A DNA stretch of 57,659 nt, from positions 1 to 57,659 of the forward strand of contig CANLKN010000007.1 of NCBI GenBank assembly GCA_947491475.1. Reading direction: 5' to 3'. Below are positions 18,873 through 36,479 of the stretch, piece after piece; the stretch's first letter is position 1, and every line of letters begins with the position of its first letter. The notes beneath the pieces are model-generated. The model did no database searches and had not been told where the DNA came from. It was given only the letters and a program-made list of their open reading frames with translations. This DNA comes from Akkermansiaceae bacterium. GTDB taxonomy: Bacteria; Verrucomicrobiota; Verrucomicrobiia; Verrucomicrobiales; Akkermansiaceae. The position numbers were made by a program, and so were the translations under genes.

Positions 18873-19622
18873 TTAGAGCTTGGCCTTGCTTTGGCCATCG
18901 AACCATGAATCGAATTCCTCGGCTGCAACCACTTCCATGGTGCCGATCATGTTGCCGTGGTTTTCACCGCAAAGCTGGCCGCAAACGACGAAGGTCTCCA
19001 GCGTCTTGACCGGCGTGAACCACATCGGGATTTCGCGACCGGGGATGGCGTCCTGCTGGATGCGCATCGGCACGATGTGATAGTTGTGGATCACGTCGGT
19101 GGAGGTGATGTTGAGCACGGCCGGACGGTTCACCGGCAGCTTGAGGATCGGGCTGGTGAAATCATCGAGCGCGTTCGGGTCATCGAGATCGAGTCCGATG
19201 TCGCCCACACCGCTCATCAGTGCGGGATTCACGCGGCCGAATTTGCCATCGGCTCCGGGGTAGTGATAGGTCCAGCCGAACTGCCAGCCGACCACGCGCA
19301 CGCGCTGTGGGTTGAGGGTTTGCACTACTTTCCAGTTGTCCACCCGCTCGGCCCAAAGAGGAAACGCGAAGCCCATCAGCAGCACCGCCTCGACGATGAC
19401 CACGCCGACTTCCAAGTGGCTGGAAAGATGGCTTTTCACTCCGGTGTAGGAGGCCTTGGGACTGCGGCGGTGCCAGAAGCGCACGATGCAGTAGAGGAAG
19501 AAAATCGTCCAGCCGATGAACAATACGAACATGAACCAATGGACCACATCAAGCATGTGATCCACCTGACCACCATGGGCGGAGAAATTTTCCGGAATGC
19601 CGAGGAACTTGGAAGGACTCAT
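18873..19622 (-). CDS. coxB: Cytochrome c oxidase subunit II (CuA)
   Basis: 249 residues. Two N-terminal helices (about 22-46 and 72-92) precede the cupredoxin domain. The CuA ligands are in STDVIHNYH and CGQLCGENHGNM: His, Cys-x3-Cys, His, Met are all present. The residue between the cysteines that is usually Glu (the Mg-site glutamate) is Gln here. There is no fused cytochrome c domain, so this is not a caa3-type subunit; the electron donor must be a separate cytochrome, several of which are encoded in this operon. It is the last gene of the respiratory superoperon, unusually placed after coxA, coxC and coxD. Confidence 0.93.
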   Translation of the reverse strand: MSPSKFLGIPENFSAHGGQVDHMLDVVHWFMFVLFIGWTIFFLYCIVRFWHRRSPKASYTGVKSHLSSHLEVGVVIVEAVLLMGFAFPLWAERVDNWKVVQTLNPQRVRVVGWQFGWTYHYPGADGKFGRVNPALMSGVGDIGLDLDDPNALDDFTSPILKLPVNRPAVLNITSTDVIHNYHIVPMRIQQDAIPGREIPMWFTPVKTLETFVVCGQLCGENHGNMIGTMEVVAAEEFDSWFDGQSKAKL

Positions 19623-20108: not shown

Positions 20109-20489
20109 TTAACGAAGCGTGGGGGTGGCAAGCGGGGCCGGTGTGGTGGACATTCGGCCGTAGAAAAGCGGATCGTGAATCGGATCGTTCTTGGCGAACG
20201 CGGTGAGACCGAACAACACGATCACGAAAATAATACCCGAGCCGAAGATCCAGTAAACCGCCTTCTTCTCGTGATTGAGGTGCATGAAGACTGCCGCGAC
20301 CAAGGTGGCCTTGGTGGCGGCGATTGCCAGGCCGAGAATGGCATCCCACATATCGAAACCATGATGGCCGATATCCAGCGCGGGCACTGTGGCCACCGCC
20401 ACTGTCAGGATGGTGCCAACGAACAAGGCGGCACCGACAATGAGATAGGTGCGGATGGATTTTTGGATTTCTTCAGCGGTATTTGCCAT
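20109..20489 (-). CDS. coxD: Prokaryotic cytochrome c oxidase subunit IV-like protein
   Basis: 126 residues with three transmembrane helices (about 15-34, 48-70 and 78-98). The segment ATKATLVAAVFMHLNHEKK is the signature of bacterial subunit IV (COX4_pro / CyoD-like), in which a helix with K-A-x-L-V-x-x-F-F-M-H-L precedes a charged loop. It stabilises the oxidase. It follows coxC with a 48-bp spacer that is filled by a 7-nt-period repeat. Confidence 0.85.
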   Translation of the reverse strand: MANTAEEIQKSIRTYLIVGAALFVGTILTVAVATVPALDIGHHGFDMWDAILGLAIAATKATLVAAVFMHLNHEKKAVYWIFGSGIIFVIVLFGLTAFAKNDPIHDPLFYGRMSTTPAPLATPTLR

Positions 20490-20537: not shown

Positions 20538-22163
20538 TCACATCAAGTAGAAGATCGGGAAAACAAAGATCCAGACGAGGTCCACGAAGTGCCAGAAGAG
20601 ACCGCCGACCTCGACGCGGTTGGCGAGCCACTCGGGATTGGAGTTGAACATTTTGCGGCCGAAGAACAGGTAGTAGGCGAGGACCAGCGCGCCGCCAATG
20701 ACGTGCAGGCCGTGCAGGCCGGTGATGGTGAAGTAAAGGGCGTAGTAGGTGTTCCATGCCGGAGTGAACTTGGAGGCGAAACGAACCTGCTCGCGCGGCA
20801 GATCGAAGTGCATCGGGAAGGTTTCCTTGGCTTCGCGGCCCTTGTAGTCGGGGCCCATGAACTCTTCCTTGAGAGCAATTTTCCCCTCACCGCGGTTCAC
20901 GCCATCGCTCATGGCCACGAAGTCCTTCCAGTCGATGCGGTAGCGTTCCTTGGCGGTGGGCTCGCGGTTGGGTTTGCCGGTTTCCTCATTGACGCCGTGG
21001 TCTTTGAGAAGATCGGCCTCGAGTTTCGCGACTTGTGCCTTGTTCCATTCCCACGCTTCACGGGCAAACGTGTGGTTTTGAATGAGCCATGAGTTTTCAA
21101 CTGCGGCGATTGGATCCAGGCCTTTATTCACCGCCTTCATCGCGAGGTGGCGGAAGTCGATGGCATCCACATAGTGGAAACCCATCGGGCTGGGCAGCAA
21201 CTTGCCATCGATGACCGTGTCATCACGCAGGCGGGATTGTGTTTCGCCCTCGCGCACATCGCGTGGCCGGAAATCAAGACGGACGGGCGGCGTGACGGTG
21301 AAAGATACGGTGCTGATTTCAGTGAGCAGTTTACCGGCTTCTTCGAGCGCCTTGACGTCGATGTTCACATCCGAGGCGAGCTGCCAACCGCGTTTGCCGG
21401 GGTTTTCGGCTTTGGTTTTTTTCCATTCCTCGCGGAGCGATGCGGTGCGCAGTGCTCCGTTGTGGGCGCGGGCTTTGAGATGGGCTTTTTGGATTGTTGC
21501 CAGAAGCTCCAAACTCAAAGGCTCGCCGGCCTTGGCAATGAGGGTATCCTGATTTCCGCCTTCACTCGTGCGGGCCGTGACGTCGGCCGCGAGTTTGATT
21601 TCCGCGTTGCGGTGTGCCGCCTGGCTGAGGATTTCCTCCACCCATGGTTTATGATAGCGCACGGTGCTGAAGGTGAGTCCGCCGGATTCGATGCGGATCT
21701 GGTTTTCCTCCACTTCGCTGCCGTGGTGGTTGAGCACGTATTCACCATTCTCCTTTTCATAACCGAGGTGGCCCTCGACGACGGTATAGTCAGTGAGGCG
21801 GACCGCTTGGTGATGGAACTTGACGTTGTATTCGATGGCCTTGAGCACCATGAAAAGCGCGGCGCAGGCAATGGTGATGCCCATGTAGATCTGGAAATGC
21901 CGCCACTTGCCCATCTTGAGCGAGGCCCAGGCGAAGACCACGGTGACCGAGGAACCGATCAGCACAAAGGTGTTGATCAGGCCGGGCAGCACCGGCAGCG
22001 TGCGCTCCGGCCATGGAAAATCCGCGCCGAGCCGCAGGAACACATAGGCCGAGAAGAATCCACCAAAGAGCATGACTTCCGAGGCCAGGAACAACCAGAT
22101 CGCGATCTTGGAGTTGAACAGTCCGGTATCCTTGCGGGGTGTGACAATGTAGGGGATTTCCAT
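20538..22163 (-). CDS. coxC: Cytochrome c oxidase subunit III with large insertion
   Basis: 541 residues, more than twice the usual length. The N-terminal part has three helices (IAIWLFLASEVMLFGGFFSAY at about 20-40, then 60-81 and 92-110) and the conserved Glu of helix 3 in KAIEY. The last 77 residues (TPAWNTYYALYFTITGLHG, HVIGGALVLAYYLFFG, VEVGGLFWHFVDLVWIFVF) are the final two helices of subunit III. Between them, residues about 117-464 form a hydrophilic insertion without cysteines or obvious motifs, mixed in charge. The reading frame is continuous, so this is not a frameshift. The inserted domain would protrude from the membrane. Confidence 0.88.
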   Translation of the reverse strand: MEIPYIVTPRKDTGLFNSKIAIWLFLASEVMLFGGFFSAYVFLRLGADFPWPERTLPVLPGLINTFVLIGSSVTVVFAWASLKMGKWRHFQIYMGITIACAALFMVLKAIEYNVKFHHQAVRLTDYTVVEGHLGYEKENGEYVLNHHGSEVEENQIRIESGGLTFSTVRYHKPWVEEILSQAAHRNAEIKLAADVTARTSEGGNQDTLIAKAGEPLSLELLATIQKAHLKARAHNGALRTASLREEWKKTKAENPGKRGWQLASDVNIDVKALEEAGKLLTEISTVSFTVTPPVRLDFRPRDVREGETQSRLRDDTVIDGKLLPSPMGFHYVDAIDFRHLAMKAVNKGLDPIAAVENSWLIQNHTFAREAWEWNKAQVAKLEADLLKDHGVNEETGKPNREPTAKERYRIDWKDFVAMSDGVNRGEGKIALKEEFMGPDYKGREAKETFPMHFDLPREQVRFASKFTPAWNTYYALYFTITGLHGLHVIGGALVLAYYLFFGRKMFNSNPEWLANRVEVGGLFWHFVDLVWIFVFPIFYLM

Positions 22164-22205: not shown

Positions 22206-24080
22206 TCAGTGAACTGAAGGTTTGGTTTCCGCAGGGCTGGATTGGCGGGGTTTTTCCCACTGCGGGATGAAGTCCTGCTCCGAATCGGGACGGCTGTATT
22301 CGTAGGGGCCACGGTAAACGGCGGGCTCGAAGGTGAAATTGCCATGGCCCGGAGGTGTGGGCGTGGCCCATTCGAGGGTGGTGGCGTTCCATGGATTGTC
22401 GCTCTCCACCTTACGGCCGGTCTTCCATGAGATGAAGAGATTGATGATGAATGGAATCTGGGCGAGCGCCAGGGTCCATGCTCCCATCGACATCAGGATG
22501 TTCATATCGATGTGCTGGGCCACGGTATTGGCGAAGACATTGCCCCCATCGCCGGTGGCGGCGGTGGCCTTGTCGAGGTAGGCGTCGCCACCATTATACC
22601 AGCGGCGGTGGAAACCGGCCATGCCTTGCAGCAGCATCGGGAAGAAGATGATGTTCATGCAGATCAGGCTGGGCCAGAAGTGCAGGTGATTGAGCCACGA
22701 GCTCATGTAGCGGCCGGTGATTTTCGGATACCAGTGCAGCACGCCACCGAACAAGCCGAACAGGATGCCTGGAGCCACCACGTAGTGGAAGTGGCCGATG
22801 ACGTAATACGTATCGTGCAGGTGGAGGTCGGCCAGATTGAAGGCGAGCGGCAGGCCGGTGAGGCCGCCGATACCGAACATCGGGATGAAGGCGCAGGCCC
22901 AGAGCATCGGCGGAGTGAAACGGATCGAACCGCCCCACAGCGAGATGAGCATCGCGGTGATGATGACGACGGACGGAATCGAAATGAGCACGGTGGTCGT
23001 CTGGAAGAAGGTGGAGACGGCTGCACCCATGCCGGTCATATACATGTGGTGGGCCCACACGATGAAGGAAAGGAAACCGAGAAGGAGGACCGAATAGACC
23101 ATCGACTTGTAGCCCCACAGTGGCTTGCGGGTATTGACTGGAATGATTTCCGCGACACAGGCGAATGCCGGTAGCAGTAGCACATACACCTCTGGGTGGC
23201 CGAGGAACCAGAAAAGGTGCTGAAAGAGAAGGGGAGAACCGCCGCCGGAGAGGTCGGCAAGGCCCTCGGTCTTGGTGAACAGGCCGGAGGGCATGAAAAA
23301 CGACGAATGCGCCACGCGGTCCATCAATTGCATGATCCCGGCCGCTTCCAGCGGCGGGAAGGCCAGCAGCAGCAGGAACGCGGTGACCAGCATCGCCCAG
23401 ACGAGAAAGGGCATGCGCATCCAGGTCAGGCCGCGGGCGCGCAGGTTGATGATGGTGGTGATGAAATTGACCGAACCGAGCAGCGAGGAAGTAATCAACA
23501 GCACCAAGCCGATGAGCCATTGCGTTTGGCCTGCCAGCCATTGGTTGACGATCTGGCCATCGGCAAAACCGGCCAGCGGCGAGTAGTTCGTCCAGCCGGA
23601 TTTGGCCGCGCCGGATTCCATAAAGAACGAGGCGCACATCACCAGACCGCCTGCCAGATAGACCCAGTAGGACGCCATATTGAGGCGTGGAAAAGCCATG
23701 TCCGGCGCGCCGATTTGCAGCGGGGTGACGTAGTTTCCGAAGGCTCCGAAGCCGAGCGGCACGATGCCGAGGAAGACCATGATCGTGCCGTGCATGGCAC
23801 CGAACATGTTATAGGTTTCGCCGGTCACCTTGCCGTCCTGAAGCCAGCGGGCTTTCCAGCCATCGCTGAAACACCAACTCATCCACTCCGGCAGTGGTTG
23901 GTGCGGGAAGGCGATGCTCCAGCGCATCACCATCATCAGGTAAAAGCCGAAGGCCAGAAACAGCATCGCGGTGATGCCATACTGGATACCGATCATCTTG
24001 TGATCTGTGGAAAAAACATACTTCCGGATGAATCCGGGGGCGTGGTGGTGTTCGTCGTGATGGGTGGCGTGGGCGCTCAT
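22206..24080 (-). CDS. coxA: Cytochrome c oxidase subunit I (aa3 type, A1-like)
   Basis: 624 residues, about 12 helices. All metal ligands are present: H97 (MHGTIM) and H432 for heme a, H430 (VIGHFHYVV) for heme a3, and H295, H344, H345 (GHPEVY, WAHHMY) for CuB, with the cross-linked Tyr299. The D-channel is intact (D127 in APDMAF, E297). The K-channel is not: the canonical P-T-G-x-K is P369-S-V-V-I373, so the lysine is Ile. This is a proton-pumping heme-copper oxidase working with the alternative complex III encoded upstream. A 184-bp AT-rich spacer (24081-24264) with a TATGAT box at 24168-24163 lies before it and could hold an internal promoter. Confidence 0.95.
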   Translation of the reverse strand: MSAHATHHDEHHHAPGFIRKYVFSTDHKMIGIQYGITAMLFLAFGFYLMMVMRWSIAFPHQPLPEWMSWCFSDGWKARWLQDGKVTGETYNMFGAMHGTIMVFLGIVPLGFGAFGNYVTPLQIGAPDMAFPRLNMASYWVYLAGGLVMCASFFMESGAAKSGWTNYSPLAGFADGQIVNQWLAGQTQWLIGLVLLITSSLLGSVNFITTIINLRARGLTWMRMPFLVWAMLVTAFLLLLAFPPLEAAGIMQLMDRVAHSSFFMPSGLFTKTEGLADLSGGGSPLLFQHLFWFLGHPEVYVLLLPAFACVAEIIPVNTRKPLWGYKSMVYSVLLLGFLSFIVWAHHMYMTGMGAAVSTFFQTTTVLISIPSVVIITAMLISLWGGSIRFTPPMLWACAFIPMFGIGGLTGLPLAFNLADLHLHDTYYVIGHFHYVVAPGILFGLFGGVLHWYPKITGRYMSSWLNHLHFWPSLICMNIIFFPMLLQGMAGFHRRWYNGGDAYLDKATAATGDGGNVFANTVAQHIDMNILMSMGAWTLALAQIPFIINLFISWKTGRKVESDNPWNATTLEWATPTPPGHGNFTFEPAVYRGPYEYSRPDSEQDFIPQWEKPRQSSPAETKPSVH

Positions 24081-24264: not shown

Positions 24265-25059
24265 TCAGGGAGCGGCAGCGGCAGCGGGAGCCGCAGTGAC
24301 GGGTGCCAGGGTGAGAGGATCCACCAGTGCCTTGGGATCGAGCGCTTCGCCGGGAAGAGCCTTGATGTGTTCGGCATTAAGCTCCTCGGCGGTGACTTGC
24401 TGGCCGACTTTCGCGCGTGCGGCGGAGATTTCCATGGCAGCCTTGGCCATTTCCACGGTGACGATATCGCCGGTGGAGTTGCCGAAATTATTGCGGACGT
24501 AAGTCATGATGCCGGCCAGATCCTCGGGACTGAGGCCCGCGCCTTGAGCAGCCATGCCGCCTGCGCCACCGTAGGTTTTGCCGGTGCTCGTCGGGCCGAC
24601 CAAGCCGTTGAGGATGATCATTGCAAGGCGGTCCGTTTCGCCGGTGGCCCATTCGGAGCCAACCAGTGAGGGGAAATTGGCACCGTCGCCTTTCGCATCG
24701 GGGCCGTGGCAGCCGTTGCATTTCACGGAATAGATTCTGGCACCCTTGGCCATGTAGGCGGCTAGGGCTTCCTTCGGTTGCGGACCGCTTTCCGCCACGC
24801 CTGGCGGCGGGGTGCGGACGTAGCCTTGCTGGAAAACCGCGCCGTAGTTGAAGAGTTTGCCAGCGCCGCCAAGGATGCCACCGGCGATCAGCAGGACCAG
24901 ACCGCAGGCGGCGATCAACCACAGGGAAATCGGCTCCGAGCCATTTTCAGCGATTCGTTTTTCGCGAACGCAAGCAGCGGCTTCGCGGGCCAGGCGACCG
25001 TGGGTCTCGGTCACGTTGATCGAGTCCTCAAGGTCGGGTTTCTGGTTGGGCAGAGACAT
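24265..25059 (-). CDS. Membrane-anchored monoheme cytochrome c
   Basis: 264 residues from ATG 25059. One helix at about 44-65 (ISLWLIAACGLVLLIAGGI) anchors a periplasmic cytochrome c domain with CNGCH; the distal Met is probably in GGMAAQG. A C-terminal Ala/Pro-rich tail ends the protein. The domain shares its closing motif, YVRNNFGN, with the cytochrome at 27370-28128, so the two are paralogues. They flank the CcoN/CcoO-like pair. It may be the electron shuttle that delivers electrons to CuA of CoxB. Confidence 0.85.
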   Translation of the reverse strand: MSLPNQKPDLEDSINVTETHGRLAREAAACVREKRIAENGSEPISLWLIAACGLVLLIAGGILGGAGKLFNYGAVFQQGYVRTPPPGVAESGPQPKEALAAYMAKGARIYSVKCNGCHGPDAKGDGANFPSLVGSEWATGETDRLAMIILNGLVGPTSTGKTYGGAGGMAAQGAGLSPEDLAGIMTYVRNNFGNSTGDIVTVEMAKAAMEISAARAKVGQQVTAEELNAEHIKALPGEALDPKALVDPLTLAPVTAAPAAAAAP

Positions 25060-25088
25060 GTCGGAAAGTGTGTGGGAAAATGTGGAAT

Positions 25089-25793
25089 TCAACTCTCGTC
25101 GTCTTTTTTCACAGGCGTGAAATTGAGGGAAGCAGGTACTGCGTGGTCCTTCTTGAGTGAGAGCAGGTAGGAGACCAAGGCCCTGGCATCGGAGTTTGGC
25201 ACCAACTCACGGTCTGGGCCGACATCTACGGGTAGGGCGTCGGTTGATGGATTGCCTTTGATTTCGCGTTTGCTAAAAAAGAACGGATGGGGCGGGCAGG
25301 TCGAGTTCCAGAGCTTTGGATTCAACTGCGGATTGTAGATACGAAGCAATAGCCACTGCTCGGGATCGACGCCAGTGGCGCGGAGGGCCTCCATGCGGTG
25401 ACCAAGGTTCGAGAGGTCCGGGCCCATCCGGGTGAGGCCGATGTGGGCGAAGGTTTCACCTTGGAAATCGAAGGCATTCGTTTCACGGCGGGTGTCGCCG
25501 CGCACGGGATCTTCTTTTTTTCCGCCCCAATCGGCGCGGTAGAGATCGTTGCCGGCATAGGTGGGGCGAATCACCTGGGTGTGGCAGAGGTAGCAGCCGT
25601 TTTCCGCATAGACTTTGGCGCCATGGGCCACGCGGCCGGTGCGCTTGGGGTTGAAGATGGCGGCGGTGTTTTTGGACTCAGGAAAGGGAACCGGCGCGAG
25701 ATCGCGCATCTTGAGGTAAGGGATCACGATGACGGCAAGCCATGCGACGCCGAAGCTGGCGGAGAGGCCGAGAATGAAGGTGCGGAGGCTCAT
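25089..25793 (-). CDS. CcoO-like monoheme cytochrome c (cbb3 subunit II homologue)
   Basis: 234 residues. An N-terminal helix (FILGLSASFGVAWLAVIVIPYL) is followed by YAENGCYLCHTQVIRPTYAG (heme site C67-x2-C70-H71 in two parts) and TRMGPDLSNLGHRMEALR, all characteristic of CcoO/FixO. At the usual distal methionine, the family motif S-x-M-P-x-Y-P-W-L-F reads S-T-C166-P-P-H-P-F-F-F, so Met is replaced by Cys, with a nearby His. This would change the heme potential. It is adjacent to a CcoN-like protein that has lost its active site. Start ATG is at 25793. Confidence 0.85.
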   Translation of the reverse strand: MSLRTFILGLSASFGVAWLAVIVIPYLKMRDLAPVPFPESKNTAAIFNPKRTGRVAHGAKVYAENGCYLCHTQVIRPTYAGNDLYRADWGGKKEDPVRGDTRRETNAFDFQGETFAHIGLTRMGPDLSNLGHRMEALRATGVDPEQWLLLRIYNPQLNPKLWNSTCPPHPFFFSKREIKGNPSTDALPVDVGPDRELVPNSDARALVSYLLSLKKDHAVPASLNFTPVKKDDES

Positions 25794-25801
25794 TAGGAGA
25801 A

Positions 25802-25835
25802 GATTGGAAATTTGAAATTTGAGATTTGAAATTTC
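25802..25835. repeat. 7-nt-period AT-rich array between ccoO-like and ccoN-like genes
   Basis: The plus strand reads GATTGGAA, ATTTGAA, ATTTGAG, ATTTGAA, ATTTCATC. It fills the 45-bp spacer and matches the arrays at 20499-20530 and 30121-30147. Confidence 0.75.
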
Positions 25836-25838
25836 ATC

Positions 25839-27341
25839 TCAGTGGACGGCGGCGTGACCGGGACCGGCATTGTCAATGTCGCCTTCCGCACCATGCGGGC
25901 TGGATGGGTGATGGCCGTGGACGAGCAAGGTGGGGTGGGTGCTGCGGCGCCCAAGGCCCAGCCACATCAACAGCAAATGGATGAAGAAGAAGATGTTGGA
26001 AAACAGGATGAGACACCACGAGAAAGTGATCGCGACCGAGTAGGGTTTGGCATATGCGGTGGCGCTTTCCCATGGTTGTTGCCAGTCTTCCTGGCCCATG
26101 CCTTGTTGCAGACCGCCGAAGATCGCCACCAGCGCCACGGTGATGATGCCATACACTGAGAACAGGAAGTGAACCTTGATCAAGCGCCGGGAGATCCATT
26201 CGCGGCGGGTGACACGCGGCACCACGAAGTAGGTGGCACCGAACATCACCAGCGTAAAGAACCCGTAGAGAGCGAGGATTTCAAAACCGTATCCGGAGAG
26301 CGTGAATTGGGTGAGCCTCAGTGAGGAGCCCGGCAGGTTGAGGATCACCGCGGAAACCGCCAGCACGAGAAGACCGGCGATGCCGGCGACGGTGAATCGC
26401 AGCGAGGGACTGGCAGCAAGGGTTTCCCGATCCGCGAGCATCGTGCGCAGCGTGTTGACTGCTGCGGCGCAGGCCGGCACGAACAACAGCGCGGTGGCGG
26501 CTGCTCCGAGATAGGGCAGGAAATAGGGAATCGGCGCGCCGGCGAGTTTTTGCATGCCAGCCCAAGGGGCGATGATCGCCAGCGACCAGAAACCGAGTTT
26601 GGCGAGCGAATAACTGAACACCGGGCGGCCCGTCACCTTTGGTGCGAGGTAATACGCGGTGCCCAATGCCACCGGAGTGAAAAACAGGAAGAGCATGCCG
26701 GAGCGGAACCAGGCGTTGATGCCGGCAGCCATCACCGGGTGACCGGGCAAACAATGCAGCAGCGTGTTAGCGGTCACATAGATCCATGGGAACCACAGCA
26801 TCGCGGCGAGCAGATACCATTGGGAAATGTAAACATGGCCTTCCGGGCGAACGCGGAACTGGATGAATGAACCAATGACAATTGCAAAATAACTTATCAA
26901 GAGGACCGGCCAGGCGAACGAAGGAAACTCCATCCACGGCATGCCGGTGCCGTGCCCCAGCAGGATGCCAACCACACCAATGGCGACACCGAGGTTCCAC
27001 ACATGTCCGGCGGTGAGGATGGTGCCCACCATGGTGCATTCCTTGCGCGAAAGCCGCGCCATCAGCCAGATGATCATCGCGAAGGCGGCCTGCATGCCCC
27101 AGCCATAGACCAGCGCATTGAGGTGGGCGGGAAAAACCCGGCCGTAGGTGGACAAGGGGCAGGACGAAAGGAAACCGGGGCTGTGAACTTTGGCGGAAGC
27201 GATCACTCCGAGGAAGATGGAAACCGCCAGCCAGAACGCGCCGCTGGTCAGGAAAAACATCACCGGATGGCGCAGCGAACGGTCGATCCCCGCACGCAAT
27301 AGCGCGTCCTGATCATGGGTGGTGGAAGTGATGGGAGACAT
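25839..27341 (-). CDS. CcoN-like protein lacking all oxidase active-site ligands
   Basis: 500 residues, about 12 helices, collinear with CcoN (cbb3 subunit I): FPAHLNALVYGWGMQAAFAM matches the first low-spin heme helix with H73, and YLAPKVTGRPVFSYSLAKLGFW matches the helix 6-7 loop. The catalytic residues are gone: CcoN WWYGHN is AWFRSG (CuB His to S214), AGPHHLHY is AGMQKLAG (CuB His pair to Q264/K265), and the heme-binding HVH is F353-E-I355. There is no histidine at all between 201 and 391. It cannot reduce oxygen or NO. Membrane fold, conservation of the frame and operon position argue for a retained non-catalytic role. Confidence 0.85.
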   Translation of the reverse strand: MSPITSTTHDQDALLRAGIDRSLRHPVMFFLTSGAFWLAVSIFLGVIASAKVHSPGFLSSCPLSTYGRVFPAHLNALVYGWGMQAAFAMIIWLMARLSRKECTMVGTILTAGHVWNLGVAIGVVGILLGHGTGMPWMEFPSFAWPVLLISYFAIVIGSFIQFRVRPEGHVYISQWYLLAAMLWFPWIYVTANTLLHCLPGHPVMAAGINAWFRSGMLFLFFTPVALGTAYYLAPKVTGRPVFSYSLAKLGFWSLAIIAPWAGMQKLAGAPIPYFLPYLGAAATALLFVPACAAAVNTLRTMLADRETLAASPSLRFTVAGIAGLLVLAVSAVILNLPGSSLRLTQFTLSGYGFEILALYGFFTLVMFGATYFVVPRVTRREWISRRLIKVHFLFSVYGIITVALVAIFGGLQQGMGQEDWQQPWESATAYAKPYSVAITFSWCLILFSNIFFFIHLLLMWLGLGRRSTHPTLLVHGHHPSSPHGAEGDIDNAGPGHAAVH

Positions 27342-27369
27342 CGGTTAGGAAAATGGGGAAAAGTGAAAA

Positions 27370-28128
27370 TCAAGGAGCGGTCAGCTCGGCAGCGGTGAGC
27401 GGCGGCTTGCCAACCTCACTGCGCAGGGCGGCCACTTGTTCGGGTTTCACGGCGGAAGCCTTGTTACCAAAATTGTTGCGCACATAAGTGAGAACCGCGG
27501 CGATCTGTTCGTCCGTTTGATAAGCGAGCGCGGCCATCGGCGCGGGGAAGTTGTATTCTTTTCCAGCAACCTTGATCGGCCCCTGAAGCCCGCGCAACTG
27601 GATGCGGATGAGATTGGAGACCGGGCCTGTAACCCACTCGGATCCCGCGAGAGGTGGGGCAATCGGGCCGCCTTCGCCATTCTGGCCATGGCAGGCCGCG
27701 CAGACCATGAATTGCACTTTGCCGATTTCCATCACCGCCGGATCGATGGGTTCGTTTGCGGCAGCAGCCGCGGCGTCGATGGCGGAGGTGTCCGGTGGTG
27801 GTGCGGCGGCGAGTTTTGCCGCGGTCGGCGAACCGGGCACCACTTGCTCAGGTTTCTCGACGGCGGCGGGCTTGGCGGCGGCGATTTTTGCGGCGACTTG
27901 AGGGATCGCGGCATCGATGGCTGCGGGCGGCAAGCTGGCGGCTTGCGCGGCCTCCACCTTGGCCTTGATTTCGTAGCGTGGCTTGGCGGCGGCATCTTCC
28001 AGCGTTTGGGGATCCTTGCGGTTGAAAAGCATGATCACTGCGAGCAGCAGCGCGAAGATCAGGAATGCGCCGAGCGCCCACCAGAAGGTGGTGAAGCGAA
28101 CGATCGGATTGTCGCGGTTGGGGTCCAT
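27370..28128 (-). CDS. Membrane-anchored monoheme cytochrome c
   Basis: 252 residues. An N-terminal helix (WWALGAFLIFALLLAVIMLF, about 16-35) and a long Ala/Pro-rich linker (40-130) lead to a single cytochrome c domain with CAACHGQNGEGGP; the distal Met is likely in APMAALAY. The order helix-linker-heme resembles CcoP with one heme domain lost. It shares the YVRNNFGN ending with the paralogue at 24265-25059. It lies between actF and the CcoN-like gene, so it probably accepts electrons from the alternative complex III. Confidence 0.82.
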   Translation of the reverse strand: MDPNRDNPIVRFTTFWWALGAFLIFALLLAVIMLFNRKDPQTLEDAAAKPRYEIKAKVEAAQAASLPPAAIDAAIPQVAAKIAAAKPAAVEKPEQVVPGSPTAAKLAAAPPPDTSAIDAAAAAANEPIDPAVMEIGKVQFMVCAACHGQNGEGGPIAPPLAGSEWVTGPVSNLIRIQLRGLQGPIKVAGKEYNFPAPMAALAYQTDEQIAAVLTYVRNNFGNKASAVKPEQVAALRSEVGKPPLTAAELTAP

Positions 28129-28146: not shown

Positions 28147-29457
28147 TCAGTTGGAAAGATTGGCGGACTCGAGGATGCGCGGGTCGCGGTTCGGATAGAG
28201 CGAATGCTGGCCGATGGCGCGCAGCAGGAAGAACAGGAAGGCGGCACCGATGGTGACGAAGGCGAGGATGTCGCCCCAGAACGCGCCGGGGATGGATACT
28301 TGGATGTCGCCGAAGACTTCGCGGTTGATATTGCCCAGCGAGATGCCGCGCTCGGGGATGCTGATGAGGTAGTGGTCGAGCACGTGCATGACCAGGGTGT
28401 AAATGGCCATGATCGAGAGCCATTTGGAATTCCGCTTGAGCCATGCCTGGAGCAGGATGACGAATGGGACGACGAAGTGGCCGAAGACCAGCGCGATCAT
28501 CGCGGTGTTCCAGTTGCCGGTGTTGCGGATGAGGAAATACGAGGTTTCCTCGGTGATGTTGGCATACCAGATGAGGAAATACTGCGAGAAGGCGATGTAG
28601 GCCCAGAACACGGTGAAGGCGAACAGCAGTTTGCCCATGATGTGGAAGTGCTCGGGACCGGTGACGTGCTTGAGGTGGCCCTGGCTCTTGAGCCACGCGC
28701 AAACCAGGATGATCACTGCCATCGAATTGAGAGCGGAACCGGCGAATAGATAAACGCCCCACATGGTGGAGAACCACTTGTAATCAAGTCCCATCAGGAA
28801 ATCGAAACCGGTGAAGGTGATGGTCAGCGCGAAGATGATGAGGGTGTAGGTGGAGTGGAAACGCGCCTGGAAAAGCCGCTTGGTGCCGGGGTTAGGATCG
28901 GTGTCCTGTGCGATGGAGAGTTTCCGCAGGCCGATGATCACCAGGCTGAGGCCGATGCCCCAGAAGATGACGCGGCCATACCAGAACGGCAGGTTCATAT
29001 ACCAATACTTGGCATAAAGCAGATGGTCCACATGGTGGAGGTGCTCTTTCACGGCACCTGGCGCGGCGCGGTGGGTGTTCATCCACTCGTAGAGGTATTG
29101 CTGGACTTCCGGGCAGAGCAGTGGAATGCCGAACAGGAACATCCACGGGTAGGTGGAGCCGAGGTTTTCAAAGGTGCGGCGTACGGAGGTGCCCCAGCCG
29201 GAATTCGACACATTGTGCAGCAGCGTCCAGAAGCAACCACCGATGGAGAGCGTGAGGAAAAAGTAAAACGCGAACAGCCAGGAGTAGGCGAACGAGCCGC
29301 TGATTTTCGCCGGGGCGAAGAACAGCAGGTAGAGACTGATGAGCGTGCCGACGGCGGCAATGGCCGCGGCGATGGTCTTCACCTTGGCAACCTTGGTGTT
29401 GTCGAGGTGATCGCCGTTGATGGCGATGTCTGCGGAAGTGACGTGGTGGTGAGCCAT
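28147..29457 (-). CDS. actF: Alternative complex III subunit F (NrfD/PsrC-like)
   Basis: 436 residues with about 10 predicted transmembrane helices. Position after actE and features such as GSFAYSWLFAFYFFLTLSIGG and the GHLKHVTGPEHFHIMGKLLF segment fit ActF, the second, smaller NrfD-type membrane subunit. In ACIII structures, ActC and ActF form the core, with quinol oxidation assigned to ActC and a proton path in both. It is separated from actE by 12 bp, indicating cotranscription. Confidence 0.88.
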   Translation of the reverse strand: MAHHHVTSADIAINGDHLDNTKVAKVKTIAAAIAAVGTLISLYLLFFAPAKISGSFAYSWLFAFYFFLTLSIGGCFWTLLHNVSNSGWGTSVRRTFENLGSTYPWMFLFGIPLLCPEVQQYLYEWMNTHRAAPGAVKEHLHHVDHLLYAKYWYMNLPFWYGRVIFWGIGLSLVIIGLRKLSIAQDTDPNPGTKRLFQARFHSTYTLIIFALTITFTGFDFLMGLDYKWFSTMWGVYLFAGSALNSMAVIILVCAWLKSQGHLKHVTGPEHFHIMGKLLFAFTVFWAYIAFSQYFLIWYANITEETSYFLIRNTGNWNTAMIALVFGHFVVPFVILLQAWLKRNSKWLSIMAIYTLVMHVLDHYLISIPERGISLGNINREVFGDIQVSIPGAFWGDILAFVTIGAAFLFFLLRAIGQHSLYPNRDPRILESANLSN

Positions 29458-29469
29458 TGCGATGGGAAA

Positions 29470-30117
29470 TTATTTGGAGGTTGCCTTGGCGGCTTGCAGC
29501 GTATGGATGTAGGCCACGATGGCCCAGCGGTCGCGCACCGGGATGTTGTAACCGTAGCCACTCATCAGGCCTTTGCCGTTGGTGATGACTTCGTAGAGGC
29601 GGCCGTCCGGGTAGCTTTCCTGGGTGAGGGCATTGAGTTTGGCGTTCGGGTTGGCGGCGACGGGCACGCCGTAGTTCGCGGTAATGCCGTTGCCGTCGCC
29701 GGAAGCACCGTGGCAAACCGCGCAATAGATCCCATAGCGCTCCTTGCCGCGCTGGATCAGTTCGGTGGCGTTTTCGGGAGTGAGACCGAGTTCCTCGGGC
29801 ATGCCATTGCCATAGAAATCGCCGATATGGCCGGTGTAATAATATCCGGCTTGTCCGCCGAACTCATATTCCGGAATGCCGCCGATGATGCGCTCGCCTT
29901 CGGGGTTGAATCCACGCGGCTGGGTTTGCGCGATGGGAAGCCGGCTGCCAAGACCGTCGGCGAAGAATCCAGAAGGCTTCTGGGCCTTGAGTTTGTCCTG
30001 CTCGTCCATGTCCGGGAAAATCCGGACCGGCGGCTTGGTGAACTTCTGCCCGCGCAAGCCGAAGATGCCGACGACAAGCAGCGCGATCAGAGCGTAGGCG
30101 AGGAAGAAATAGCGCAT
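29470..30117 (-). CDS. actE: Alternative complex III subunit E (monoheme cytochrome c)
   Basis: 215 residues. An N-terminal helix (YFFLAYALIALLVVGIFG) is followed by PPVRIFPDMDEQDKLKAQ, typical of ActE, and a cytochrome c domain with CAVCHGASGDGNG and a distal Met in GLMSGYG. ActE carries one heme c and is the probable electron exit from ACIII to the terminal oxidase or its cytochrome partners. It lies between actD and actF. Confidence 0.92.
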   Translation of the reverse strand: MRYFFLAYALIALLVVGIFGLRGQKFTKPPVRIFPDMDEQDKLKAQKPSGFFADGLGSRLPIAQTQPRGFNPEGERIIGGIPEYEFGGQAGYYYTGHIGDFYGNGMPEELGLTPENATELIQRGKERYGIYCAVCHGASGDGNGITANYGVPVAANPNAKLNALTQESYPDGRLYEVITNGKGLMSGYGYNIPVRDRWAIVAYIHTLQAAKATSK

Positions 30118-30150: not shown

Positions 30151-30705
30151 TCAGTCCTCTTCTTCGACGAGTTCGATATTCGCTCCGCCGATTTCGGCGA
30201 GGAGTTCCTTGGTCTGATTGGGGCTGAATTTCGGGTCACGGGCCTCGATGGCGATGAAGAAACCATCGTCGGTGGCGCGGTGGAATTGCCTGCTGGCAAA
30301 CAACGGATGGTTGAGGCGCGGCAGCTGGATCAGCGCGAGCAGGCCGAAGAGCACGGTGAAACCGGAGAATAAAATGGTGAGCTCGAACATCACCGGAAAG
30401 AACGCTGGAATCGTGAAGATGTTCGCGGGCTTGGCCTGCACCACCGTCGGATAAATCACCACCTGCGTCGAGTAGGCCAGCGCGAAGGCGGTGGCGGTGC
30501 CGGTCATGCCGCCGAAAAATACGAACCATGGCAGGATCGAACGCTTGAGGCCCATCGCGCCATCAAGACCGTGGATGGGATAAGGCGAATAGCAGTCCCA
30601 TTTCCTGAAACCGGCGTCGCGGACTTTTTCCGCGGCCTTGTAAAGGGCGGAGGCGCTCTTGAACTCGGCGAGGTAGCCGTAAACGCGTTTGCGGGTGGTG
30701 CTCAC
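30151..30705 (-). CDS. actD: Alternative complex III subunit D (DUF3341)
   Basis: 184 residues. It begins KRVYGYLAEFKSASALYKAAEKVRDAGF and continues WDCYSPYPIHGLDGAMGLKRSILPW (in parts), the DUF3341/ActD signature. Two transmembrane helices follow (about 65-83 and 105-127). ActD is a non-redox membrane subunit of ACIII. It overlaps nothing and follows actC by 35 bp, a spacer filled with an 8-nt-period repeat. Confidence 0.93.
   Translation of the reverse strand: MSTTRKRVYGYLAEFKSASALYKAAEKVRDAGFRKWDCYSPYPIHGLDGAMGLKRSILPWFVFFGGMTGTATAFALAYSTQVVIYPTVVQAKPANIFTIPAFFPVMFELTILFSGFTVLFGLLALIQLPRLNHPLFASRQFHRATDDGFFIAIEARDPKFSPNQTKELLAEIGGANIELVEEED

Positions 30706-30740: not shown

Positions 30741-30750
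<10 letters not shown>
30711..30750. repeat. 8-nt-period array between actD and actC
   Basis: The plus strand reads TGTGAAATTTCAG, TTTTTCAG, TTTTTCAG, ATTCTCAG, CTTTTA. It continues into the last codons and stop of actC, so the C-terminus of ActC is encoded by repeat sequence. The ending matches that of the creB-creC array. Confidence 0.75.
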
Positions 30751-32219
<1,469 letters not shown>

Positions 32220-32385: not shown

Positions 32386-35300
32386 TCAGACCATGTGAAT
32401 GGTGGCCTTGCCGATGAACTTGGCGTCCGGCATGTCCGGGTTCGGGTTTTTGACGCGGGCCAGGTAGCTGGTGCGCGGACGGGTGCCGATGTAGTGGAGC
32501 AGGTCGTAATTGCGCTCGATCATCTTGCTGCGGCCCATCGACGACTGGTCACCATCGTGCAGGTTGCCGAAGACAATGGCGTCGGCGGGGCAGGCTTCCT
32601 GGCAGGCGACCTTCACCGAGTCCACCGGGATGCGGAGGGTTTTCTCGGTGACTTCCATCTCGGTGGACGGCTTGCCGGCGACGAGTGCTTCCTGCTTCTG
32701 GCCGCGCTTCTGGCGGATGACGGAGTCTTTAAGGCGCTGCACGCAGTAAGTGCACTTCTCCATCACGCCGCGCATGCGGACGGTGACATTCGGGTTGCGC
32801 TGGAGGTGCTCCGAATCGCCGTCGCGCCTCTCGCCGAGCGGACCGCGGTAGAGGTTGTGTTTGATGAGCGGGTTGCGCTTGTTGTAATCGAAGAAATTGA
32901 AGCGCCGCGCCTTGTAGGGGCAGTTGTTGGCGCAGTAGCGGGTGCCGATGCAGCGGTTGTAGGCCATCGCATTGAGGCCGTCCTCGGTGTGGACCGTGGC
33001 GTTGACCGGACAGACGGTTTCGCAGGGTGCGGACTCGCAGTGGACGCAGGCGACGGGTTGCGGAACCAGCGCCGGGTTGTCGGCATCGAAGGTATTGTCC
33101 TTTTGCGCGGCGAAATACCGGTCCATGCGGATCCAGTGCATTTCGCGGCCCTTGGCGACCTGCTCCTTGCCGACGACGGGGATGTTGTTTTCCGCCTGGC
33201 AGGCGACGAGGCACGAGTTGCAACCCATGCATGCCGAGAGGTCGATGGACATCGCCCATTGGTGAAGCGGGTCGTTGATGAGCGGCTGGGCCTTGCCATC
33301 GGGGCCGGGGTTCCATCTGGCCGATCCTTTTGGTTTGTAGAGGGAGATGTTAGGCGGGGCGTGGGAGTCGTTGCCCTGTTTGACAACATTGGCGAGTTGC
33401 TTCTCGAAACCACCTTTTTCGTCGTGCGCATCGATGGTGGAAACCTCGCGGGCCAGTGCGCGGCCATACATCGAGTTGTGTTCCTGGACGAGTGCCACCG
33501 GGTAGCGCTTGTCGGTGAGTTTCACGGTGGCACCGGTGGCGAAATACGCGCTGCGTGAATTGCGCAGCGGATAGGCGTTGAAGCCGCGGTTGATGCCGAC
33601 CAGGCCGACATGCGATTGATTGGCGGGCTTGCGGCCGAGTGCGTCGTCCTTGTCGAAAGCCTGGCCGTAGCCGAGCGGGATGATGATGGTGTTTTCTGCC
33701 TGTCCGAAGGAAACGAGCACCGGAATTTCCAAGGTGCGGCCGTTGACGGTCACCTGAATCATCGGCGACTTGCGGTTTTCGCCTTCGCCATCCGGCGAAC
33801 CGAGCGCGCGGGGATTTTCGGTGGCGATGATTTCATCGTAGATACCGAGTTCCTTGGCGGTCTTTGGCGCGATGAGCGCGGCGTTGTCCCAAGTGAGTTT
33901 GGAGATCGGATCGGGCGCTTCCTGGAGCCACGCGTTATCGATCCATCGGCCGTCGTAAACTGACGCATCGGTGGCGAAGATCACTTCCAGCGAGTCCTTG
34001 GTAGGCGCTGCGGGATGCGTGTGAAGGAAAGCCTCGTAGGCGCGTGGCGTGGCTTGGGGATATTGCGAACCGGCGAGGAATCCATCGCGCAGGAGTTTTT
34101 TCCATGCGGCCTCGCCCTCACCACCGAGGGCGGCGAAGGTCTTTCTAACGGCATCGTATGCGGGTGAGGGTGCCGCGTTTTCGCCTTCGCCATCGAGGAT
34201 TTTGCCATTCTCCGCAAGCAGGGCGAGCAGCAGCTCCAGTTCCGAAACGCAGTTTGGATAGAGCGGCAGGATCATCGGCTGGACCACCGTGTAGGTGCCG
34301 CGGGCGCTGCGCGCGTCCGACCATGATTCGAGATAATGCGCGGCCGGGATGTGCCAGGTGGCGGCGTGGGCGGTGGCGTGCGTGCGGTCGCCGAGTTGGA
34401 TGCTGGTTTTCACCTTGGCCAGTGTGGCCGCGAAATCGAGATCCGCCGGGGCATCGTAAACCGGGTTGGATGGAGTGAGCAGGAAAAGCGTGTCGATGTT
34501 TCCGGCATCGATGTCCGCCTTTAGGGTGGCGATCGAGCCGAGGCCTTGGTTTTCCCGTTGCACGGCCAGCAGCGGCTTGCCTTCGCCGATGTTGTCGAGC
34601 GTCTGGTTGATTTTTTGCGCCAAGGTGTGCAGCACGGCTGGTTGGCGCGAACCGACGATCACCATCGACTTGCCGGAGTGGCTCTTGAGATCCGCGGCGG
34701 TGGCCTTGACCCATTCGACCTGCTTGGGGTCCGTCAATTGAGGCGCTCCAGAAATTCCAAAGAGCCCCAGTTCCTTTGCGATAGCTGAAGTGATCGCAGC
34801 CACCTCGCTGGCGGCGACGCGCAGGCGGTGATCCGCCATGCCGCCGGTGAGCGAAAACGCGGCTTCCACCGCATAGAGGCGGTTCATCTTCGAAGCGTCC
34901 GGCTTTTGGTCGTAGACCTTTCCTTCCGGTTTGCGGCGGGCGAAGAATGGAGTCACCGGGCCTTGGGGGTCGGTGCCGGCGAAATCGCAATCGAGCGCAA
35001 GAATACGGTCGGCCTTGGCGAAATCCGCCACCAGCTTCACACCATCTCCAAGCACACTGTAGTATTCTCCGGTGAGCGCCTCGTATTGATAGAACTTCGC
35101 GGCTGGAAACTTGGCGGAAATTTCCTTCGTCAGGCGGTTGCGGGTCGGGCTGTCGTCGGCACCGAAGAGAAAACCGATTTTGGCTGCCTTGTCGGCGGCG
35201 ATGGCCGCGATGACGGCGTCGAGTTCCTCGCGTTTGGCGGATTTTCCGGACTTGAGGATCTGCCGCGAGCGCGAGGGCGAGTAAAGATCCAGGACGGAGG

Positions 35301-35736
35301 CCTGCGCAAAGGCGTCGGTGCCTTCCGCATCCGGATGCAGATTATTCGGCGCGAGCTTGGTCGGGCGGCCCTCGAAGGTGGTGATCACCAGCGGCGTGGC
35401 ACCGTTGGCGCGCGGCATCGAGGATGCGTAATAAGTCGCCTTGCCGGGGATCACCCACTCGGGGGCCTTGGTGTAGGGGACGATGTAAGTTTCCGGGCGG
35501 CGGCAGGCGGCCATGCCGAATCCGGCGAGCGCGGTGGATGCGCCCATCAGTTTGAGGAACGAGCGGCGCGAGGTCTCCGCGTCCGATTCGTCGGCCATTT
35601 CGGCGGCTCCCTGCGGGAATTCACGATCCAGCCACTCACGGAATGCCGGGCTGTCCTCAAGCTGCCCCGCACTGCGCCAGGAAACGGTGGTTTCGCCGGC
35701 GGGAACTTCGGGGTGTTGCCAAATGCGCTTGCTCAT
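32386..35736 (-). CDS. actB: Alternative complex III subunit B (molybdopterin-like + Fe-S fusion)
   Basis: 1116 residues. A twin-arginine motif RRSFLKLMG at about 57 precedes a molybdopterin-oxidoreductase-like domain (ActB1, to about 780) that binds no cofactor in known ACIII. The C-terminal ferredoxin domain (ActB2) has clusters CMGCNSCLVAC (about 833), CVHCESAPCETVCP (about 895), CIGTRYCANNCP (about 926) and CTYC...ACQEACP (about 994-1043), enough for four Fe-S clusters. It passes electrons from quinol at ActC toward the hemes of ActA. The position after actA is standard. Confidence 0.95.
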   Translation of the reverse strand: MSKRIWQHPEVPAGETTVSWRSAGQLEDSPAFREWLDREFPQGAAEMADESDAETSRRSFLKLMGASTALAGFGMAACRRPETYIVPYTKAPEWVIPGKATYYASSMPRANGATPLVITTFEGRPTKLAPNNLHPDAEGTDAFAQASVLDLYSPSRSRQILKSGKSAKREELDAVIAAIAADKAAKIGFLFGADDSPTRNRLTKEISAKFPAAKFYQYEALTGEYYSVLGDGVKLVADFAKADRILALDCDFAGTDPQGPVTPFFARRKPEGKVYDQKPDASKMNRLYAVEAAFSLTGGMADHRLRVAASEVAAITSAIAKELGLFGISGAPQLTDPKQVEWVKATAADLKSHSGKSMVIVGSRQPAVLHTLAQKINQTLDNIGEGKPLLAVQRENQGLGSIATLKADIDAGNIDTLFLLTPSNPVYDAPADLDFAATLAKVKTSIQLGDRTHATAHAATWHIPAAHYLESWSDARSARGTYTVVQPMILPLYPNCVSELELLLALLAENGKILDGEGENAAPSPAYDAVRKTFAALGGEGEAAWKKLLRDGFLAGSQYPQATPRAYEAFLHTHPAAPTKDSLEVIFATDASVYDGRWIDNAWLQEAPDPISKLTWDNAALIAPKTAKELGIYDEIIATENPRALGSPDGEGENRKSPMIQVTVNGRTLEIPVLVSFGQAENTIIIPLGYGQAFDKDDALGRKPANQSHVGLVGINRGFNAYPLRNSRSAYFATGATVKLTDKRYPVALVQEHNSMYGRALAREVSTIDAHDEKGGFEKQLANVVKQGNDSHAPPNISLYKPKGSARWNPGPDGKAQPLINDPLHQWAMSIDLSACMGCNSCLVACQAENNIPVVGKEQVAKGREMHWIRMDRYFAAQKDNTFDADNPALVPQPVACVHCESAPCETVCPVNATVHTEDGLNAMAYNRCIGTRYCANNCPYKARRFNFFDYNKRNPLIKHNLYRGPLGERRDGDSEHLQRNPNVTVRMRGVMEKCTYCVQRLKDSVIRQKRGQKQEALVAGKPSTEMEVTEKTLRIPVDSVKVACQEACPADAIVFGNLHDGDQSSMGRSKMIERNYDLLHYIGTRPRTSYLARVKNPNPDMPDAKFIGKATIHMV

Positions 35737-35780: not shown

Positions 35781-36479
35781 TCAATGGTGGCAGGTGGCGC
35801 AGCTTTCCTTGGGATTCACTTGGAATTGCTCCTTGAGCTTGAGGCCGAGATCCTTGGTGGTCTTCACTCCAAGCTGCGGATTGTTGGAAAGGTAGGTCTC
35901 CGCGTCGTAGCCGAAATTGTAAACTTCTTCCAGCGGGCGCAGATGGTTCTCCGGCGCGCGGTGGCACTCAAGACACCAGCCCATCGAGTGGTTCTGATCC
36001 TGCCAGACGACTTCCATCTGGTGCACGTTGCCGTGGCAGCTTTGGCATGAAACGCCGCGGTTCACGTGGGCGGCGTGGTTGAAATAGACGAAGTCCGGGG
36101 ATTTGTGGATGCGCACCCATTCGATCGGTTTTCCGTCGTAGCCGGGGAAGGCCGGGTTCATCGAGCGGTGCAGCGGCTCAAGCTTCGGACTCTCGCGCTG
36201 GATGTGCTGGTGGCAGTTCCAGCAGGTATTGCCGGTCGGCACGTTCGAGTGGCCGGACACATCCACAAACGAGTGGCAGTAGCGGCAGTCGAGACCGAGT
36301 TGATCGACGTGGATCTTGTGGGAAAACGGGATTGGCTGCGACGGCTGGTAGCCGACCGTGAGAGCCTTGGGCGTGGCGTAATAAGCGAAAGCGAGGGCTA
36401 CGCCTGCCGCTGCGGAACCAGCGCAAACGGCGATTTTGATGGGCAGAAAATTGGACCAGCGGGGAAAAATGTTTGCCAT
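35781..36479 (-). CDS. actA: Alternative complex III subunit A (pentaheme cytochrome c)
   Basis: 232 residues with one N-terminal helix (IKIAVCAGSAAAGVALAFAYY). Five CxxCH heme sites are present: CRYCH, CWNCH, CQSCH, CLECH and, at the very C-terminus, CATCH. This is the ActA pattern. It receives electrons from ActB and hands them to ActE. It is the first act gene; the promoter probably lies upstream of the small membrane protein gene at 36981 or in the 181-bp gap 36480-36660. Confidence 0.95.
   Translation of the reverse strand: MANIFPRWSNFLPIKIAVCAGSAAAGVALAFAYYATPKALTVGYQPSQPIPFSHKIHVDQLGLDCRYCHSFVDVSGHSNVPTGNTCWNCHQHIQRESPKLEPLHRSMNPAFPGYDGKPIEWVRIHKSPDFVYFNHAAHVNRGVSCQSCHGNVHQMEVVWQDQNHSMGWCLECHRAPENHLRPLEEVYNFGYDAETYLSNNPQLGVKTTKDLGLKLKEQFQVNPKESCATCHH

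Follow-up and report, generated by a model that had tools for sequence, protein, structure and literature searches.

The window analysed here, a stretch of 57,659 nucleotides from an Akkermansiaceae bacterium (contig CANLKN010000007.1 of assembly GCA_947491475.1), encodes a module of a cytochrome c, a CcoN-like protein, a CcoO-like protein and a second cytochrome c, which lies 3' of the genes of an alternative complex III (ACIII; ActA to ActF, 36479 to 28147) and is followed by coxA, all on the minus strand. Alignment establishes that the CcoN-like protein is a homolog of cbb3 oxidase subunit I that lacks the residues which would bind CuB and the haems b and b3, so that it is inactivated as an oxidase. 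On balance, the protein probably serves as a non-catalytic membrane adaptor by which c-haems are anchored between ACIII and a different oxidase; it would thus be an oxidase that was disarmed and retained. This proposal builds on the homology and fold of the protein, the loss of its metal site, its conservation and location, the c-haem motifs of its partners, the intact relatives that occupy the same slot, and the other heme-copper proteins of genomes that hold inactive copies only, all of which are apparent from sequence; from these, we infer a physical complex and a route for electrons.

The CcoN-like protein matched PF00115 with 147 bits (cut-off 34.8) over residues 27-436, and its sequence matched the CcoN chains of cbb3 oxidases 9g6b, 3mk7 and 8smr with E-values of 6e-25 to 2e-21. 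An AlphaFold2 (AF2) model was obtained with a mean predicted local distance difference test score (pLDDT) of 73.7 and a predicted template modelling score (pTM) of 0.80; its best fold matches in the PDB were cbb3 CcoN chains, with template modelling (TM) scores of 0.75-0.84 (0.78-0.84 against 3mk7), and scores were lower for nitric oxide reductase, ba3 and aa3 structures. Within the model, pLDDT fell below 50 in two internal stretches, 262-278 and 340-350, which lie at or adjoin the former metal-site segments. The PF00115 match and the TM scores place the protein in the heme-copper superfamily by its subunit I fold. A preliminary description of this locus had stated that the protein aligns with cbb3 subunit I, and this is borne out by homology that is nearly end to end; residues 201-391, whose relation to CcoN had been singled out for checking, lie within the PF00115 match of a protein whose fold matches cbb3 CcoN chains.

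Against TIGR00780 (ccoN), the CcoN-like protein scored 110 bits and missed the family cut-off of 583, whereas the canonical CcoN encoded elsewhere in the same genome scored 628 bits. When the two proteins were aligned, one of the seven active-site residues proved to be retained, namely H73, which is also the only one left of the six His ligands. The first CuB His is replaced by S214, the active-site Tyr by A258, the HH pair of CuB by Q264-K265, and HVH by F353-E-I355. His residues occur at positions 9, 25, 53, 73, 113, 130, 169, 196, 201, 391 and later, leaving 202-390 free of His. The replacement of the CuB ligands and HVH, the His-free stretch and H73 as the sole remainder had all been noted previously, and the alignment confirmed them. 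The protein would accordingly be expected to carry neither haem b nor copper. Haem binding by the remaining H73 was considered and is unlikely, for this position is F in 7 of the 89 near relatives described below, and the fraction of His at position 73 is just 0.2 among 76 inactive sequences thinned at 65% identity.

Conservation among near relatives was assessed in an alignment of 89 distinct copies from the same genus, the same order, or named contigs with 59-87% identity, from which three partial loci had been dropped. The complete set of metal-site residues was found in none of the 89 copies. The gene order act-(cyt c)-ccoN-like-ccoO-like-cyt c-coxA-coxC-coxD-coxB recurs in the order and in near-relative loci, interrupted by contig ends; long near-relative loci without cox genes labelled downstream also occur (L069, L074, L077, L079, L080, L084, L086, L088 and others). 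Departures from this layout were observed on the act side as well. At L108 and in genus g8 of family f4 (G043, G047, G050, G447, G553), the act operon is split: ActC is located far from the CcoN-like gene or on a different contig, with about 168 kb between the two in G447, and at L108 ActE, ActF, the CcoNO module and the cox genes stand together.

The ratio of non-synonymous to synonymous substitution (dN/dS) was estimated by the Nei-Gojobori method (NG86) for 33 loci and 324 pairs picked by ActC divergence. The median for the CcoN-like gene was 0.135 (228 usable pairs, 33 loci), which is far from neutral, and the medians at the same loci were 0.075 for CoxA, 0.088 for ActC, 0.125 for CoxB, 0.126 for ActF and 0.179 for the CcoO-like gene, all of these values being rough given high synonymous distances (median 1.31 for the CcoN-like gene). 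The neutral drift expected of a pseudogene, for which the preliminary description had proposed a dN/dS check, was not observed, and these ratios indicate that the CcoN-like gene is under purifying selection.

A profile built from members of the order matched 47 of 194 genomes of the phylum (E ≤ 1e-60), 42 of them in class Verrucomicrobiia; the five matches outside the class are canonical-like, carry all residues, and have no act genes labelled in the fetched stretches. Other phyla were covered only through a plasmid collection. In Verrucomicrobiia, the profile matched 277 of 384 genomes (E ≤ 1e-60), a count that may include a few other C-type copies, since the five canonical-like ones passed the same threshold, and ActC was found in 299 of the 384 (E ≤ 1e-120). 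Copies were termed live when all seven residues (six His and the Tyr) are present and dead when three or fewer are. Among 140 copies distinct at 95%, a non-random set with regions chosen from hit lists at about one to a few per genus, 36 carry seven of seven residues, one (L218) carries six, 103 carry zero to three, and none carries four or five; these states were read from MAFFT alignments that are partly below 40% identity and have a gap at 265 in some rows. Scored by a script that passed over the window's own row, 134 of the 140 loci have ActF upstream of the module and in the same orientation. Residues lost along with the ligands include R70, W210, S247, S283 and G442, and W37, R68, W92, W115, P140, W211, P234, W252, W274, Y371, P375 and G410 are mostly kept in live and dead copies. 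Loss of the His ligands, whose constancy the preliminary description had proposed to check, extends to all 89 near relatives in that none has the full set, but not to the class, of which 36 of 140 copies are live; homologs with the ligands do occupy the same locus in other genera and families, and the window's gene is nonetheless not one decaying copy. Live and dead copies even occur in one genus (g40, family f15), in which the live L223 contrasts with the dead L171 and L299, the identities being 94% for ActC, 66% for CcoO and 47% for CcoN. In L218, the single change among the seven residues is that of the first CuB His to Arg, which could mark the beginning of loss or stem from faulty sequence assembly. 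Two copies occur in genome G548 (L212, L213), one dead and followed by coxA, the other live, and the live one is not the dead one's nearest live relative.

Twenty-two ActC-positive genomes outside the CcoN-like match list were searched with PF00115. Thirteen belong to genus g170 (family f82), and 12 of these contain a second PF00115 match (11 above the cut-off; G429 has none). Eight of the second matches share contig and strand with ActC and lie 3.0 kb past it, and four are on other contigs; the open frames near ActC (8 of 13 genomes) are 480-566 amino acids long, score only 37-62 bits against PF00115, and may be the CcoN-like protein at its most eroded. Among the remaining nine genomes, G299 and G514 gave no PF00115 match, G529 and G303 gave an A-type-like one alone, and G066, G255, G260, G266 and G312 gave further matches whose kind was not readable. 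Universal co-occurrence of the module with ACIII is not strictly shown by these counts.

Trees of different genes gave different numbers of losses. In a CcoN tree from which L303 was omitted and for which at least 300 filled columns were demanded, the dead copies formed one clade plus a separate L170 and two changes sufficed; in a more careful tree of 49 rows, the dead-copy grouping was supported at 87/84 (bootstrap/Shimodaira-Hasegawa-like approximate likelihood ratio test, SH-aLRT). These results favor a history of one or two old losses, after which the gene was replaced between live and dead lineages; so does family f10, which does not fit loss in place, its live L213 not being the closest live relative of the family's dead copies (ranks 23, 28 and 29 of 37). 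Such a history is possible, yet it appears clearly the less probable one, because 18 changes are required by the ActC+ActD tree (121 loci) and 13 by the CcoO tree (140 loci), and because 24 of the 36 dead copies in families with both kinds are closest to the live copy of their own family (among 37 live or near-live copies). Furthermore, trees constrained to join the live and dead copies of one family were not rejected in any of four families (p-values of the approximately unbiased test, p-AU, 0.93, 0.72, 0.76 and 0.15), and for three of them the likelihood under the constraint exceeded that of the quick unconstrained tree; for the fourth, f74, it was lower by 26.6 log units (p-AU 0.15), which leans against loss in place there. 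L170 is dead and lies deep within a live clade in both the CcoN and ActC trees, on a branch of 0.55-0.57 in the CcoN trees (live neighbors 0.05-0.17 in one of them) and of 0.06 in the ActC tree (0.02-0.13). The CcoN tree alone was rejected as proof of a single loss because the branches of dead copies can be much longer and the constrained trees were not rejected. Four relatives on proteobacterial plasmids, which are 43-47% identical to live copies and have all seven residues, branch outside the Verrucomicrobiia copies, and the ancestral state was therefore live. Taken together, these comparisons suggest that there were apparently several losses in place, numbering between two and about eighteen.

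The haem motifs of the partner proteins are retained. The CcoO-like protein of the window scored 28.2 bits against PF02433, which is weak and below the cut-off of 29.6, but its CxxCH, like its position, is constant (140 of 140 loci), and by this motif it is a monohaem CcoO. The distal Met of CcoO is present in 37 of 37 live or near-live loci and in 78 of 103 dead ones. A CxxCH was found in all 130 second cytochromes (cytC2) that were recognised, with a single motif in 126 of them and in the window; the dihaem CcoP of a cbb3 oxidase is thus not found here. Two haem bridges from ACIII to an oxidase are described in the accessible text of PMC8552683, namely a sixth ActA haem in Flavobacterium johnsoniae and the haem c of the caa3 oxidase in Rhodothermus marinus. 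Neither was seen in these operons, because wherever ActA was recognised (58 of 58 loci, with no live one included) it contains exactly five CxxCH, and CoxB contains none in 83 of 83. The retained module may supply candidate bridge haems, and it offers a concrete candidate for how ACIII electrons are handed on where the described bridges are not seen.

The other oxidases of these organisms were surveyed with PF00115 in 40 genomes of the class, 16 with a live copy and 24 with a dead one. In G059 and G203 (99 and 98% complete), the live copy is the sole hit to PF00115, and a search of nine genomes that included these two gave no cytochrome bd; the live form is accordingly likely to be a functional oxidase. 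The live copies of G059 and G203 are also below the TIGR00780 cut-off, at 254 and 245 bits. At least one other PF00115 match was present in all 24 dead-only genomes of this set, and in a second set of 36 genomes, 33 are dead-only and all 33 contain a further match (in G512, two partial pieces only); the other three are G344 with a live copy, G317 with six of seven residues, and G548 with both kinds. Every one of the 57 dead-only genomes examined therefore encodes another heme-copper protein. Weak PF00115 matches (24-38 bits, frames of 474-557 amino acids) were also observed at G132:C34:30056, G148:C1:4498533, G503:C14:36649, G410:C1:413308 and G533:C205:743, each about 1 kb from a heme-copper protein of 214-224 bits, and these may represent another, unrelated case of a working subunit paired with a degenerate one.

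The adaptor proposed above would have originated as a compact oxidase of the C type (cbb3-like; CcoN-CcoO-cytochrome c), which joined the ACIII operon and presumably took electrons from ACIII. In many lineages, including that of the window, the residues of subunit I that bind haem and copper would have disappeared together, and the CcoN-like protein, its CcoO partner and the c-haem motifs would have stayed under selection. Dead CcoN could then anchor the CcoO-like protein and the flanking cytochromes against ACIII, and their c-haems could relay electrons from ActA/ActE to a separate oxidase, which in the window may be the aa3 enzyme encoded next in the operon; the link to the neighboring aa3 genes is suggested by that operon, and the coxA product is presumed to be the catalytic partner of the module. 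The wider statement, that loss was repeated and that each dead copy was kept as a docking subunit free of haem b and copper that wires ACIII to other oxidases, an electron-transfer pseudoenzyme widespread in Verrucomicrobiia, is made tentatively and at somewhat less than even confidence. The scaffold suggested in the preliminary description remains the best reading, given its constant place in near relatives and purifying selection, but its position between ACIII and aa3 is one arrangement among a wider set.

Several observations weigh against an adaptor role. Of 90 dead rows in which the DNA extends far enough downstream, 48 have no cox genes there; in these, and in the near-relative loci mentioned above, the receiving oxidase would be encoded elsewhere. 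Across 14 independent live/dead contrasts (well-supported ActC+ActD branches; 116 loci with both traits known), cox adjacency and loss changed in the same direction in 1.3 and in the opposite direction in 1.1 on average, which is no association; a scenario in which the module became inactive after the arrival of the cox genes is not supported by these contrasts. The distal Met of CcoO is lost in 25 of 103 dead loci, being replaced by Cys in the window and its relatives and by Ser, His, Arg, Lys or Ala in others, and this may alter the redox role of the protein. Finally, when measured against CcoO and ActC, divergence is faster in dead than in live CcoN, possibly from weakened constraint, although this would also be expected of a scaffold.

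Other explanations for the retained protein were weighed against the same observations. Were dead CcoN an assembly or stability factor that inserts or matures CcoO-type cytochromes or ActF and stands outside the electron path, the missing distal Met would be accounted for, as CcoO is then not always a normal electron carrier, and the predominance of Trp, Gly and Pro among the residues common to live and dead copies would fit as well; this is nevertheless unlikely in view of the CxxCH kept in every CcoO and cytC2 and of operons in which neither described haem bridge was seen. We regard as less likely still a new activity in which the emptied haem cavity is used for quinone binding or ion movement. 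The membrane fold kept under purifying selection is compatible with such an activity, as is the comparatively high conservation, in dead copies, of the segments that once contained the ligands (mean majority fractions of 0.57 for 61-95 and 241-275 and of 0.56 for 346-380, with 0.36-0.54 elsewhere); H391, K235 and R376 are nearly constant, but they are constant in live copies too and hence not new, although no systematic search for residues specific to dead copies was made. A decaying gene retained only through operon polarity, to which the faster divergence of dead CcoN might point, is very improbable and largely refuted by the low dN/dS, by the breadth of profile matches relative to ActC in the class, and by genus g170, which is missing from the 277 matching genomes and still has the weak PF00115 frame beyond ActC in 8 of 13.

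Compared with known systems, the module resembles a cbb3 oxidase (CcoN/CcoO, 3mk7) in the subunit I fold, the order N-O-cytochrome c and the monohaem CcoO. It differs in an N subunit without metal ligands that scores far below the ccoN family cut-off, in a third subunit that is monohaem rather than dihaem, and in the ACIII genes in front and the aa3 genes behind. In the ACIII-aa3 supercomplex of F. johnsoniae and the ACIII-caa3 of R. marinus, ACIII feeds an A-type oxidase directly according to the accessible text of PMC8552683; the likeness, here from genes alone, is that act and A-type cox genes share one operon, and the differences are the five haem motifs of ActA, the absence of any from CoxB, and the CcoN/CcoO/cyt c module between the gene sets. 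The closest live relatives found outside the phylum, in the plasmid collection, are compact proteobacterial CcoN-CcoO-cyt c modules on plasmids annotated as Paraburkholderia fungorum and Azoarcus KH32C, which differ in having all seven residues and no ACIII genes annotated within 8 kb.

Other Verrucomicrobiota carry this locus and family as well, described there under another name. The copy at L164, which belongs to family f9, is dead (QQGRHQQ). We take L164 to be Opitutus terrae, and f9 is presumably Opitutaceae. In its accessible parts, PMC8498564 cites Refojo 2010 for C-type oxidases beside ACIII in Opitutaceae. In Methylacidiphilum, cbb3 genes beside ACIII were related to high O2 affinity (PMC6688271, as far as accessible), an ACIII-linked cbb3 is likewise given in the accessible parts of PMC8498564 and PMC11102522, and those of PMC10205796 list a cbb3 type; by these partial descriptions, the ACIII-linked "cbb3" of Methylacidiphilum and Opitutaceae (PMC8498564, PMC6688271, PMC11102522) is at the same locus and of the same family as the module of the window. 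The loci of Methylacidiphilum Kam1, SolV and V4 (L154, L155 and L283) encode a subunit I with S, E, S, S, H, F and V at positions 73, 214, 258, 264, 265, 353 and 355, so that H265 is the one residue of the seven that is kept. A search of seven genomes of the Methylacidiphilum family, these three included, gave no canonical CcoN, the best score being 34 bits (cut-off 583). As judged by the residues of subunit I, what has been reported for Methylacidiphilum as an ACIII-linked "cbb3 oxidase" is a dead copy, which bears on the published link of its high O2 affinity to cbb3 beside ACIII (PMC6688271, accessible parts). More generally, cbb3 annotations made from PF00115-like matches may attribute to many Verrucomicrobiota an ACIII-linked oxidase incapable of O2 reduction, and natural live/dead pairs such as those of genus g40 could separate oxidase catalysis from a possible docking role. 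Literature searches aimed at inactive CcoN or ACIII-linked C-type subunits brought up no paper recognised as reporting the loss of ligands, most subscription journals being outside this coverage, and the accessible part of PMC13274419, on ACIII and oxidases of another Verrucomicrobiota isolate, mentions no such module by name. In Methylacidiphilum caldifontis IT6, a nitrous oxide reductase cluster is reported to lie within the ACIII cluster, beside aa3 and the so-called cbb3 (PMC11102522, accessible parts).

The gene order and coordinates of the preliminary description hold as stated. The complex upstream is identified as ACIII by the order ActABCDEF, a multihaem ActA, an NrfD-like ActC and a monohaem ActE, with ActB, ActD and ActF assigned by place or size.

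Features of the ACIII, CcoN-like and cox gene region of the window; codon positions are counted from the start of the CcoN-like gene
Feature	Coordinates	Strand	Remarks
ActA, pentahaem cytochrome c	35781..36479	-	five CxxCH, no sixth haem
ActB	32386..35736	-	named from length and position
ActC, NrfD-like	30741..32219	-	PF03916
ActD	30151..30705	-	named from position
ActE, monohaem cytochrome c	29470..30117	-	
ActF	28147..29457	-	named from act operon position; no Pfam match
cytC1, monohaem cytochrome c	27370..28128	-	single CxxCH, hydrophobic N-terminus
CcoN-like, 500 amino acids	25839..27341	-	cbb3 subunit I fold without metal site
CcoN-like codon, H73	27125-27123		former site, His kept
CcoN-like codon, S214	26702-26700		former site
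CcoN-like codon, A258	26570-26568		former site
CcoN-like codons, Q264-K265	26552-26547		former site
CcoN-like codons, F353-E-I355	26285-26277		former site
CcoO-like monohaem cytochrome c, 234 amino acids	25089..25793	-	hydrophobic N-terminus, CxxCH retained, distal Met replaced by Cys (STCPP)
cytC2, monohaem cytochrome c (CcoP position)	24265..25092	-	single CxxCH, hydrophobic stretch close to N-terminus
coxA, A-type oxidase subunit I	22206..24080	-	PF00115, 434 bits; TIGR02891, 550 bits (below its cut-off of 671)
coxC (subunit III), long insert	20538..22163	-	PF00510
coxD	20109..20489	-	named from position and length
coxB, without haem c motif	18873..19622	-	PF00116; CxxCH count 0

In CoxC, which is 541 amino acids long, the insert separates the membrane parts, and PF00510 matched two stretches, the best being 463-539. 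Its relatives in Akkermansiaceae loci showed 45-87% identity on alignment.

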